Assembly: GCF_020085105.1 (NCBI RefSeq)
Contig: NC_058055.1
Coordinates: forward strand, 9,703,822-9,767,821
Direction of reading: 5' to 3'
DNA: 64,000 nucleotides
Origin: Siniperca chuatsi
Lineage: Eukaryota; Chordata; Actinopteri; Centrarchiformes; Sinipercidae
A program made the translations under genes and the position numbers. The first letter of the stretch is position 1; each line of letters begins with the position of its first letter. The notes under the pieces are model-generated. The model was not told the origin of the DNA, made no database searches, and worked only from the letters and a program-made list of their open reading frames with translations. Of the stretch, positions 7,471 to 46,176 are shown piece after piece.

Positions 7471-7632
7471 ATTTAATAGTTTGATTTTGCCTGCCGACAT
7501 AGGGGAGACCGTGTTACTTTGGCTCTACACAAAGAGCCTGTAGCGCTTAAGTCCAGCATTGAGTATGATTCCCTGGTTGCGGTGGAGGTGAGGAAGCATG
7601 GGGTGCAAAACTGAGGTGTCAAGACGAACGTG
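7471..7632 (+). other. zc3h12b: 5'UTR part of zc3h12b coding exon 1
   Basis: This sequence lies between the acceptor ctctttcag (ending 7470) and the ATG at 7633. Stops in the coding frame of this leader exclude an earlier start within the exon. A GTG lies directly before the ATG; the ATG is the natural start. Confidence 0.6.
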
Positions 7633-11143
<3,511 letters not shown>

Positions 11144-20849: not shown

Positions 20850-21179
20850 CTGGGAATATTTAAGCACTAGCCGGTCTCCAGGGAATCCTTCATGTAGTCA
20901 TTGTTTTTTGCTGTTGTCACTATTTCCACAGTGTACATTCAGCATTACACTCTCTCGTTTTTGCAAATATTTTGAGTTAAAATTGTCATTTAAATATGTA
21001 AATGAAACTAATACAGTCGTTGGAGGCCATACTCAGAGTTAAGGTTAAAAAAATATACCTACACCAAGTACACAGACTGAAAATGACATGTATGAACATG
21101 CTGGACCGACCACAAAATGGAGGTTAAGACATAATCATCTGTGGAGGGAAATGTGTGATTTGAGCTGCAAAGAAAAGAA

Positions 21180-21840
21180 GACTCTGACAGTGTTGACCAC
21201 AAATTCTCAATCTGGTGTGAGCAGGAAGTTTCATCCAGAGACAGATGCCTTGACCGAGTTGTAGAGCATCAAGCATTTATTACACACACACAAAAATGCA
21301 CTTTTGCGGGTGAAGTGGTACAAAGATGACATATTTTGATTTACTGAGCAGTGGAAAAAAGTATGGTTTGATGAGTCATCGTGCTCTATTTGGTGCACAC
21401 CAGAAGAAGTCAAGAGGCCTGAGGTCTTGACTCCCACGATAAAACAGTCTGGACTCTCTGTCATGGTGAGGGAAGCATTTTGTGGCACAGTTTAGGCCAG
21501 CTGAACCTCTGACAGAGCAAGGTCAAATTTCAGTAAGCACAATGTTATTCTGAGTGATTGGGGTCGCCCTTTAAAGAAGCATTTCTCTCCTGATGGTTTC
21601 CAGGATATGGATCCCTCTACAGGAGATAAGTGGTCACAGAACGGTTTGATAAACGCGAAAACAACTTTGACAACACACCATACTCCACTGCCACCCCATG
21701 TCACCACATCTTAGCCCAGCTAGAAGTTTTTGGAGCAGTGCCCAAGTGTCTTCCACCACTCCATCATTATAACACCATTGGTTATGTGTGTGGAAATGGC
21801 AGTTGTCTCCACCACATTACATTATGTTGTTCCTTTCTTT
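21180..21840 (+). mobile_element. Decayed Tc1/mariner transposase remnant
   Basis: Scattered frames read like a Tc1-type transposase. TEQWKKVWFDESSCSIW (near 21334-21385) carries the DES motif with the second catalytic Asp. It is followed by a frame ending PTIKQSGLSVMV, like the family's G-G-SVMVWG. At 21630 VTERFDKRENNFDN corresponds to the E-x-FD-x-HEND segment that precedes the final catalytic Glu. Frames shift between these pieces and stops are present (for example after GTV near 21495), so the copy is dead. Terminal inverted repeats were not found. Confidence 0.65.
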
Positions 21841-22195: not shown

Positions 22196-22340
22196 GAAAA
22201 GGTTTCAGTCGTAGTCATCAGAATCAAGACGTTTCGGCTCCCACCCGGACGTTTTTCACAATTGAGAATGACTTCCAGATGGGAGCCGAAACGTCTTGAT
22301 TCTGAAAACAGTGTCCAGATGACTACGACAAAAACCTTTT
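22196..22340. repeat. Two-tier inverted repeat
   Basis: The inner arms at 22218-22243 and 22280-22305 are perfect reverse complements over 26 bp (core gacgtttcggctccca) around a 36-base loop. Outer arms at about 22196-22220 and 22320-22340 pair too (gtcgtagtca / tgactacgac, aaaaggttt / acctttt). A 14-base insertion on the right side separates the tiers. The 'gtttcggctcccatctgg...attgtgaa' phrase recurs in fish repeats, so this is probably two abutting head-to-head repeat ends. Confidence 0.7.
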
Positions 22341-23554: not shown

Positions 23555-37017
<13,463 letters not shown>

Positions 37018-41525: not shown

Positions 41526-41765
41526 TTCCTTCAGCAAATCATTTGAGGGTTTCTGATCTGCCACCACTTCCTTAGGTATGTTAAGTTTGGGCAATTATAA
41601 CGACATACTACGTTTTACTGATATTAGTTAACAGTTTTAACATGTTGTATTTGAACTGTGAGATATAATAAAAGTAGTGCTGCAATACAGCGTTAGAACA
41701 ACTGAAAGTTATTCAACAAAATTTTGGCCCTTACATACATGAAAGACTAATACATCCTCTTAAGA

Positions 41766-42197
41766 TTGTACTATGGTATACTATACAATACTATACTATA
41801 CTACACTATACCATATTGTACTACACTATACCATATTGTACTATACTATACTATGCTATACTATATTATACTATACTACACTACACTACACTATACTATA
41901 CTATACTATACTATACTATACTATACTACAATATACTATATTATACTATACTATACTACACTACACTACACTATACTATACTATACTATACTACACTATT
42001 ATATACTACACTATACTATACTACACTATACTATATTATACTATACTACGCTACACTACACTACACTATACTATACTATACTATTCTATTCTATACTATA
42101 CTACACTATGCTTCACTACACTATACTTTACTACACTATACTATATTATACTATTCTATACTATATATACTATACTATACAATATTACTACTACTAT
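41766..42197 (+). repeat. ACTAT pentanucleotide satellite array (about 430 bp)
   Basis: Roughly 85 copies of a 5-base unit (ACTAT, with ACTAC, ACAAT and TCTAT variants), preceded and followed by degenerate units. Because no stop arises in the repeated 15-base frame cycle, all three forward frames stay open for 127-166 codons and read as Tyr/Leu/Ile-rich nonsense. No protein should be annotated here. Confidence 0.95.
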
Positions 42198-43320
42198 AGC
42201 CTACACCTTCCAGGAACATTCACTTCACTTTGCAGATGTAGATGATATGTACATTTGCATAGTTACTGCATGAGTCACAGGATGCTATATGTTGCAGACC
42301 TTAGCATTTAGTGAAGGTGGTTCACATACGGAACTGTATCAGGGTGCTGGTGCCTTCTTGATTGGCTGAGGATGGGGGTATTTAGAAAAGAATTATTGTA
42401 AAGTATTCATAGGACCTTCTAAAATGCATGGTGCATGGCTGCACTCACCACCATAGCTATGGTGGCAGTTGTTATCTAAGATCAAGTTCAGTTTAGGCCT
42501 TTTCCTCCTATTGGCTTCCCCAAGCCATCTGGGTTCATCACAGCCAGCTTTTTTCTTTCTTGTATCCCTGTAGACTTGATGTTTCCTCCCCTGCATGCTG
42601 CTGCAAAGAGATTGGTGGAACATTTTGATCAGTCTGGTACATACAGGCACATTGAAAAAGCTGAGCTTCCACAAGAACAACAGTCCACTCTGTAATCCAG
42701 TCTGAACAGTTTTTATACAGTATATTCAATTTTCAGTCACTTTGTGTATTAAGGAAGTGAATGTAGAGGGAAGTCCAGTGAGTGATTCATGGTACATTGG
42801 TCCAGAGTAACATGAGGAAGTTACACAGCACAGTGCATAGTACATTCTGGCTGTTACAAAAAAAGTGGGTAATGTTAAATAGTGGTGCAATAAAAAATGA
42901 CAGGCTTTTACAGAGTGTTCCTTGGAAGTTTAGGAATCCAGACATTATAAAATCTTAGCAGGGACTAAGTGCTGGGTGGGCTGGTTACATAGGCTGACAA
43001 GAAGTTGTTGGGTGCTCTGTGTCAAAGTAAAGCAACGTTCCACACCATGGGAAGCCTTTTGGAACCGTTTTCTTTGCCCTGATCCTTGTAGCTTTCGTGC
43101 ACAGGGGTGTAAACTGACAGATAGCCCACCAATCAGCTGTGTAGACTAAACACTGATGCTTTTCCTTGAAGCAGAAAGGAGCAGATGATGGCCATTGACG
43201 GCTATGTTCCAAAATTAAAGAAGAATACTACTGACATTGTTATTAATGTAGATAATAAATCAAGAATAGAGTGATACAGAATAATAAAACAGACCATAAT
43301 ACTTAATTTGATCTCATAGT
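42198..43320. other. Intergenic stretch without recognisable features
   Basis: No gene seen. Only chance frames of fewer than 100 codons on the minus strand. Confidence 0.4.
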
Positions 43321-43324
43321 TTTA

Positions 43325-44790
43325 ACACTATTACGGTGTTAATATTAATACATTAATAATAACAGGAATGACAGCTATAAGAAAAATAATGTCAGTATTA
43401 GTAACAGAGCCAATAACAACAACTGCAGTAGCAATTGTCGAGCAGGAACACGGGGGCAGCAGGTGGCCCACAACCACAGATTCAGTCTCTGCAGCTCCAG
43501 AGGCAGAAATACCTGCTGAAAGTGACAGAACGAGAGAGACGAGAAAGCAACTACGGGAGAGAGAAGATGTCGAGTTAGTAACATGCAATAATGGGATAAA
43601 AATGCATACAGATGGAGAGGGAGAGAAGGAGAGAGGAAAGAGGTGCATCATGGGAAGTCTCCCGGCAGTCTAGGCCTATAGCAGCATAAATAAGGGATGG
43701 TTCAGGGCTCACCCAAGCCAGCCCTAACTATAAGCTTTATCAAAGAGGAAAGTCTTAAGCCTACTCTTAAATGTGGAGATGCTGTCTGCCTCCCAAACCC
43801 AAACTGGGACTTGATTCCACAGGAGAGGAGCTTGATAACTGAAGGCTCTGGCTCCCATTCTACTTTTGGAGACTCTAGGAACCACAAGTAACCCTACACC
43901 CTGGGAGCGCAGTGTTCTAGTGGGGTAATAAGGTATTATAAGATCTTTAAGATACAATGCTGCCTGACCATTAAGAGCTGTGTAGGTGAGGAGAAGGATT
44001 TTAAATTCTATTCTAGATTTTACAGGGAGCCAGTGCAGAGAAGCTAATATTGGGCTAGTTGGTTAATTACAGCTACTTTAAAGGATTGTGGTACATAGCC
44101 TGTTAATAAAGACAGATTGATCATATCCAGTAAAGAGGTGCTAACTAAGGGTAAAATGTCTTTAAGCAGCGTAGTTGGAATAGGGTCTAAGAGACAGGTT
44201 GCTGGCTTAGATGAATTAATCGTCAAAGTCAGCTGAAGAAGAGCGACAGGAGCAAAGCAGTCAAAACACACATCAGGCTCTACAGCTGTTTCCAAGGTTC
44301 CTGTGTTTAAAGACAAGTTGGCACCGGTTAAAGGCAGGACTTGATGAATTTTTTCTCTAATAGTTAAAATTTTATTATTGAAGAAACTCATGAAGTCGTT
44401 TCTATTGAGGGCTATGGGAATACATGGTTCAATAGAGCTATGACTCTCTGTCAGCCTGGCTACAGTGCTGAAAAGAAAACTGAGGTTGTTTTTATTTTCT
44501 TCTATTAATGATGAGTAGTAAGCTGCTCTGGCATTACAGAGGGCCTTCCTGTATGTTTTAAGACTATCTTGTCAGACTAAACGAGATTCTTCCAGGTTGT
44601 TGGAACGCCATTTCCTTTCAAGTTTTCGTGATGTTTGCTTTAATTTGCGTGTTTGGGGGTTATACCACGGAGCTAAGCTTCTTTGTTTTATTATCTTCTT
44701 TTTTAGAGGAGTGATAGAATCAAGTGTCATTCGTAGTGAGCCTGCAGCACTATCTAAATCCATCTAACTAAAATACCATCTATACTCTAC
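43325..44790 (-). mobile_element. Internally deleted L2-like LINE retrotransposon
   Basis: Minus strand, 5' to 3'. Residues between endonuclease and reverse transcriptase (APWYNPQTRKLKQTSRKLER...) run from about 44763. They continue past one in-frame TGA at about 44569-44574, where the family has Trp-Gln-Asp, through RAAYYSSLIEENKNNLSFLF and MSFFNNKILTIREKIHQ. The start of the RT domain follows (TCLLDPIPTTLLKDILPLVS ... GYVPQSFKVAVI). At about 44050 the sequence jumps to the post-RT region LHWLPVKSRIEFKILLLTYT ... SYQAPLLWNQVP ... FKSRLKTFLFDKAYS, ending near 43724. The RT core with its YxDD active site is absent. A 3'UTR-like tail continues to about 43325. It cannot transpose by itself; L2/Maui versus Rex1-like clade is uncertain. 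Confidence 0.8.
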
Positions 44791-44989: not shown

Positions 44990-45207
44990 ACAACCATGAC
45001 ATGTTGACACTTTATTTCCACATATTTCCTGCGAGCTAGCTTTGCAGTTATCTTCCTTGTTTTGACTTCCTCTTTGCAGCGTTGAAGCTCAATGGTCAAA
45101 CCAAATGTCTTGTGCACAGTGTCATCATTGTGAACTCATGTGACAGAAAGAGGAGCGTTGCACTCGGACTCATCTGCTTCCCCATCAAGAGATCAGAACT
45201 ATCAGGT
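44990..45207 (+). promoter_or_regulatory. Candidate mir-223 promoter and first noncoding exon
   Basis: About 300 bases upstream of the hairpin lies a perfect PU.1/ETS-type site on the minus strand (aaagaggaagt, at 45065-45075). An enhancer-core C/EBP-like word (tgtggaaat, minus strand) lies at 45014-45022. A splice-donor-like atcag|gtaaca occurs at about 45207, so a primary-transcript exon could end there. In mammals mir-223 is driven by PU.1 and C/EBP factors in myeloid cells. Their presence here is seen; their use is inference. Confidence 0.4.
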
Positions 45208-45371
45208 AACAGCTTGGTATCCAATTTCTAAAATGTTGTGTGCAAAAAACAATATCTTTGTGTAAAAAGGGAAATATGTGCATGTTTTTAGGTCTTTGAT
45301 AATGTTTGGTTGGAGTGGTATCAGTGTCTTGTTAATTTATTCTACAGAGCCATCTTTGATTTTGCGAGATC

Positions 45372-45463
45372 AGGCCCCCCACTTAGTGTATTTGACAAGC
45401 TGAGTTTGACACTCTGTATCAGTGAGTGTCAGTTTGTCAAATACCCCAAGTGAGGTGTCACTT
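45372..45463 (+). ncRNA. mir223: microRNA gene mir-223 (precursor hairpin)
   Basis: An imperfect hairpin carries both recognised miR-223 arms. The 3p arm (dominant mature strand) is at 45427-45448, begins tgtcagtttgtcaaatac and ends cccca, matching the vertebrate miR-223-3p sequence I know base for base, including its seed GUCAGUU. The 5p arm is at 45385-45406 (agtgtatttgacaagctgag + tt) and differs from the mammalian 5p only in its first base. The arms flank a loop around gacactctgtatcagtgagt, and the lower stem pairs cactta with aagtg. In human, MIR223 lies just beyond MSN on Xq12, the same order as here. miR-223 is a myeloid regulator of granulocyte production and inflammation. It lies within short chance reading frames that should not be annotated as protein. 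Confidence 0.96.
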
Positions 45464-46176
45464 GTCTACAAATTTAACCCATCCTGGGTTACTCCACAGA
45501 CTGAGCAGCCAACTCCACAGGGTGATCTACCACATCAAGGAACGTGAAAACACCAAGGCAACAGGCTCGAAACGCTTTTCTTGTGAAACATTTGAGGATA
45601 TAGACAAGGAACAAGGTTTACAGTGGTTAAAGTCGTAATGGTGACAAATGCTTAGTCATTGTATCATCTGTTTAACTGTCTGTTATTTGGTAAATCATAA
45701 GCAAATTACTCTCATACATAATTGTTGTAATGAACAGAAAGATTAATTTTATCCCATGAGAATCATATATGTGTATTTAATGAATCAACAAAGGCTTCGT
45801 AGAGATGTTTGAATAAGAGAGAGGTGTGTTAATAGGTTTATTGACCAAAAAAGCCTAACCTCTTGAACCCAATTTTGTTTTTCAGTCTTTTTATTGTTAG
45901 GCTTATTAGCACTACATATCTCAGCCAAAGATGCCACATACTGTTATTTACAGGACAGGCAAGGCTGCTCTGAAATTCCATCATTAGGTATGTGAGTGGA
46001 ACTATACATGTTCTAGGACCAGAGTGTTTTGACACAATTTGCATCTAGAGGGTTACAGAGGTTAAAAAAAGGTTTTGAAACATATTGTTCAAAACCCATG
46101 AGAACAACCTCAATATGAGATCTGAGTGTCATATACAATGATCTGTTGCCAGGGATGCAAATGAGCAAACATTAAA

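Follow-up and report, generated by a model that had tools for sequence, protein, structure and literature searches.

A functional and probably single-copy mir-223 gene almost certainly lies downstream of moesin in Siniperca chuatsi, within the 64-kb stretch of DNA analysed here (the window). This reading draws together a covariance-model match to the mir-223 family, conserved mature arms, a fold far more stable than shuffled sequence (z -5.74), a single locus found in the assembly, and the presence upstream of moesin and a ZC3H12B/C-like gene (Table 1). mir-223 is a long-known blood-cell microRNA gene. Scanning the window with cmscan against Rfam identified the mir-223 model RF00664 on the forward strand with an E-value of 3.2e-24, the score of 99.7 bits lying well above the curated gathering score of 57 bits. 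The alignment is full length (model positions 1-106 of 106), and the hairpin is the sole Rfam match in the window at the curated cut-off.

Table 1. Features of the mir-223 locus and its surroundings, in coordinates of the window
Feature	Position	Strand	Evidence or remark
ZC3H12B/C-like (Regnase-like) ribonuclease gene	7630..11143	+	upstream of moesin; Pfam domains
Moesin coding exons, 11 pieces, first residues unplaced, partial gene model	31357..37014	+	upstream neighbour
Possible (unproven) exon of spliced primary transcript	45080..45205	+	splice-site ranks
mir-223 precursor (RF00664)	45361..45466	+	cmscan 99.7 bits; MFE -43.6 kcal/mol over 45350-45480
Predicted miR-223-5p arm	45385..45406	+	21/22 vs Rfam consensus; ends inferred
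Predicted miR-223-3p arm, seed GUCAGUU	45427..45448	+	22/22 vs Rfam consensus
CNNC motif	45466..45469	+	begins 18 nt past 3p end; putative role in Drosha/SRSF3 processing

Comparison with the consensus printed with the Rfam match, which served as reference in place of miRBase entries, revealed that conservation is concentrated in the mature RNAs. The 3p arm is identical throughout and carries the seed, and the 5p arm deviates at its first base only, as an earlier note on this DNA had described for both arms. Identity falls to 13 of 20 positions in the loop, 10 of 24 in the 5' flank and 9 of 18 in the 3' flank. Retention of the mature arms together with drift of the loop and flanks is the pattern expected under selection on the mature RNAs. 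The locus thus resembles the RF00664 family in both mature arms, in its hairpin architecture and in its position downstream of moesin (as in human), and differs from it in the first 5p base and in the diverged loop and flanks. The same note had also pointed to a 70-codon frame over the hairpin, which is present at 45426-45638 with a GTG start; its description of the gene as hidden is overstated, as a routine Rfam scan reports the hairpin.

Folding of 45350-45480, proposed as a check in the earlier note, yielded a stable hairpin with the two arms on opposite sides of the predicted structure. The minimum free energy of -43.6 kcal/mol compares with a mean of -25.2 kcal/mol among dinucleotide shuffles, and none of 200 shuffles folded as stably. 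A stable hairpin alone is nevertheless little proof of mir-223, given that 7 of 6392 90-nt segments scanned over both strands fold better than the best segment over this hairpin, including those at 22211 and 60001. Such segments are what would favour an accidental resemblance to mir-223, in a hairpin that arose by chance or from an inverted repeat such as that of a transposon. Against this stand the E-value of the RF00664 match and the 3p 22-mer, which was matched in none of 100 shuffles and, even with 3 mismatches allowed, has a single occurrence in the window. Furthermore, when the hairpin and its surroundings (701 bases) were compared with the assembly, skipping simple repeats and very frequent words, no other place gave a match. 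The E-value and the shuffles refute a chance hairpin for practical purposes, and we regard its probability as negligible. The strongest-folding stretch of the window, at 22211-22320 (-54.6 kcal/mol per 90 nt on the reverse strand and -52.8 on the forward strand), may represent the end of a transposon; in the region 21.0-21.8 kb, frames appear Tc1/mariner-like by eye, and the one frame of this group compared with Pfam (21049-21261) had no match.

Closer inspection of the minimum-energy fold bears on how the precursor may be processed. Position 45386 is paired to 45446 and position 45384 to 45448, so that arms ending at 45385 and 45448 would leave a 3' overhang of 1 nt, not 2 nt; a 2-nt overhang with the 3p end at 45448 would place the 5p start at 45386 instead of 45385. 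The predicted 5p end may therefore be off by one base. A CNNC motif at such a distance from the 3p end as found here would favour Drosha/SRSF3 processing. Also observed in the base of the hairpin was a strong donor-like site at 45450 (CCAA/GTGAGGT, the slash marking the junction), ranking 31st of 4025; splicing at this site, if used, would compete with Drosha cutting.

Relaxing the window scan to E-values of up to 0.1 added only an antisense match to the hairpin itself, at 45366-45471 on the reverse strand, with a score of 54.3 bits just below the cut-off of 57. This score could be read as a sign that the locus is bidirectional and that its antisense strand also gives a functional microRNA. 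Near-palindromic hairpins, however, resemble themselves when reversed, and the arms at 45377-45403 and 45429-45455 are 85% complementary; a second, antisense microRNA is accordingly considered very unlikely.

A further alternative is that this locus is a dead or silent pseudogene, with a working copy elsewhere. Teleosts duplicated their genomes, which lends this idea some plausibility. In Atlantic salmon, two mir-223 genes are listed (PMC5418855, Table 4), compared with the one locus found here. From a search of the whole assembly that contains the window (718.8 Mb in 65 contigs), one RF00664 locus was recovered, plus its own antisense match; the gene is thus probably single-copy, on the strength of 49 first-look candidates scored out of 79,863, which leaves some room for a diverged second copy. 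When the assembly was scanned for the 3p 22-mer with up to 2 mismatches allowed, an intact 3p arm was seen nowhere else; two further places, on contigs C5 and C22, resemble the 22-mer with 2 mismatches. Neither forms a hairpin (z -0.41 and 0.16) or gives an RF00664 match at E-values of up to 1, and they are therefore probably not paralogues. The single locus recovered from the candidates scored, the two places without hairpin or family match, and the intact 3p arm at the present locus make a pseudogene highly improbable. Searching with moesin also brought up ERM-like exons elsewhere in the assembly, on contigs that include C8, C12, C15, C16 and C24; relatives of this neighbour gene are thus present, with no second mir-223 found.

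A separate observation concerns the forward strand of C22 at 15092878-15092899 (L004:2001-2022), which is complementary to miR-223-3p nearly in full, at 20 of 22 positions, with a mismatch opposite position 3 of the microRNA and a G-U pair at position 8. The site begins nine bases past the stop of an open frame with a membrane-anchor-like tail, and could represent an extended 3'UTR target site of miR-223-3p; this reading of the sequence is weak owing to the broken seed and to the scope for chance matches genome-wide.

Target octamers were also surveyed within the window. The octamer AACTGACA occurs six times on both strands together, compared with 4.96 expected, and one of the six sites is the antisense of the mir-223 hairpin itself. 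On the forward strand the nearest AACTGACA site past the moesin stop lies at 43112, which leaves some 6 kb after the stop with no site. The 3'UTR should be within these 6 kb, and self-targeting was set aside as a reading.

Examination of the genes upstream of the hairpin lends support to its orthology. The joined FERM part of the moesin gene ranked moesin chains first among PDB matches (719 bits), and among PDB chains aligned over 292-294 residues moesin scored 630-633 bits, radixin 604-607 and ezrin 585-588. The last sense codon of moesin lies at 37012-37014 and its stop codon at 37015-37017, which places the hairpin (from 45361) 8.3 kb past the stop on the same strand. Further upstream, exons of the Regnase-like gene encode the Pfam domains UBA_6, RNase_Zc3h12a and Regnase_1_C; one RNase exon scored 162.5 bits against the PDB structure of ZC3H12B and 162.0 bits against ZC3H12C, and so gives no choice of the former over the latter. 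The human gene order, ZC3H12B, LAS1L, MSN, MIR223, VSIG4, is therefore matched in part: a ZC3H12B/C-like gene, moesin and mir-223 follow one another on one strand, but no Pfam match to an Ig domain, as expected of a VSIG4-like gene, was obtained in the 22 downstream open reading frames compared, from a total of 141 stop-to-stop frames in 46-64 kb (81 forward-strand frames with a minimum of 45 aa and 60 reverse-strand frames with a minimum of 50 aa), a comparison that short exons could escape. The same 22 frames gave three weak Pfam matches to other families, all under the cut-offs. VSIG4 could be situated past the window edge.

With respect to the earlier note, which had placed the hairpin just beyond moesin in the human order and considered its identity supported by sequence and by location, the downstream position is confirmed and the distance is larger than its wording implies; the argument from sequence stands, and that from location stands on the moesin side only. 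Synteny with human is likewise supported on that side only. We found no literature on the genes that flank mir-223 in any fish, though such an account may be in print, and the excerpted text of PMC7854456 gives no neighbouring genes of mir-223. Taken together, sequence, covariance model, fold and upstream neighbours identify the hairpin at 45361-45466 as a mir-223 orthologue. Two further features were noted between moesin and the hairpin. About 1 kb from the hairpin, a 115-codon frame on the reverse strand (44044-44391) had no Pfam match and resembles by eye a non-LTR retrotransposon reverse transcriptase. At 41751-42270, some 500 bases of imperfect ACTAT-type repeats are open in all three forward frames.

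We also considered whether the hairpin belongs to a spliced host transcript. In human, the third exon of linc-223, a noncoding RNA that undergoes splicing, is reported to contain pre-miR-223 (PMC5312375). Comparable here are a candidate exon and an acceptor just upstream of the hairpin; a spliced transcript is known in human, whereas the present splice sites are read from sequence, using scores from textbook splice-site frequencies. The acceptor before 45080 ranks 12th of 4171 and the donor at 45206 ranks 86th of 4025, while the candidate next exon, which would start at 45348 and hold the hairpin, has an acceptor ranking only 367th of 4171. In the 27 kb past moesin, two acceptor-donor pairs were at least as good as 45080/45205 on both sites, compared with an average of 1.0 over 100 shuffles, and seven were at least as good by summed score, compared with 5.25 in shuffles. 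On the forward strand of the whole window there are four pairs as good, one of which is a true moesin exon. The exon at 45080-45205 is thus not clearly above chance and, having been noticed after looking, the pair stays a lead only. By analogy with human, a short noncoding RNA produced by splicing might carry mir-223 in one of its exons here, with the exon layout of this RNA, and not its sequence, kept across bony vertebrates, a proposal that we consider rather unlikely. If such a layout were true, the donor-like site at 45450 could set splicing against Drosha cutting.

Members of the mir-223 family are transcribed by Pol II and cut by Drosha and Dicer, and miR-223-3p acts on target mRNAs. By analogy with this known family, a Pol II primary transcript from the intergenic region would fold into the mir-223 hairpin, Drosha and Dicer would cut it, and miR-223-3p, with the seed GUCAGUU, would load into Argonaute and repress mRNAs in myeloid cells and in certain epithelial cells; for this locus, the transcription, the processing, the tissue of expression and the targets are all inferred in this way. 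Among fish, loss of miR-223 in zebrafish is reported to raise neutrophilic inflammation via NF-kappaB in the basal epithelium (PMC6451422), miR-223-5p is reported to rise about fivefold in alphavirus infection of Atlantic salmon (PMC5418855), and expression or function of miR-223 is reported from Nile tilapia (PMC4159003). With miR-223 reported earlier from these three species, the present locus is an ordinary orthologue of an already known family. It adds nothing new on mir-223 function; its placement in this assembly, together with its upstream neighbours, provides a further case of mir-223 located beyond moesin.
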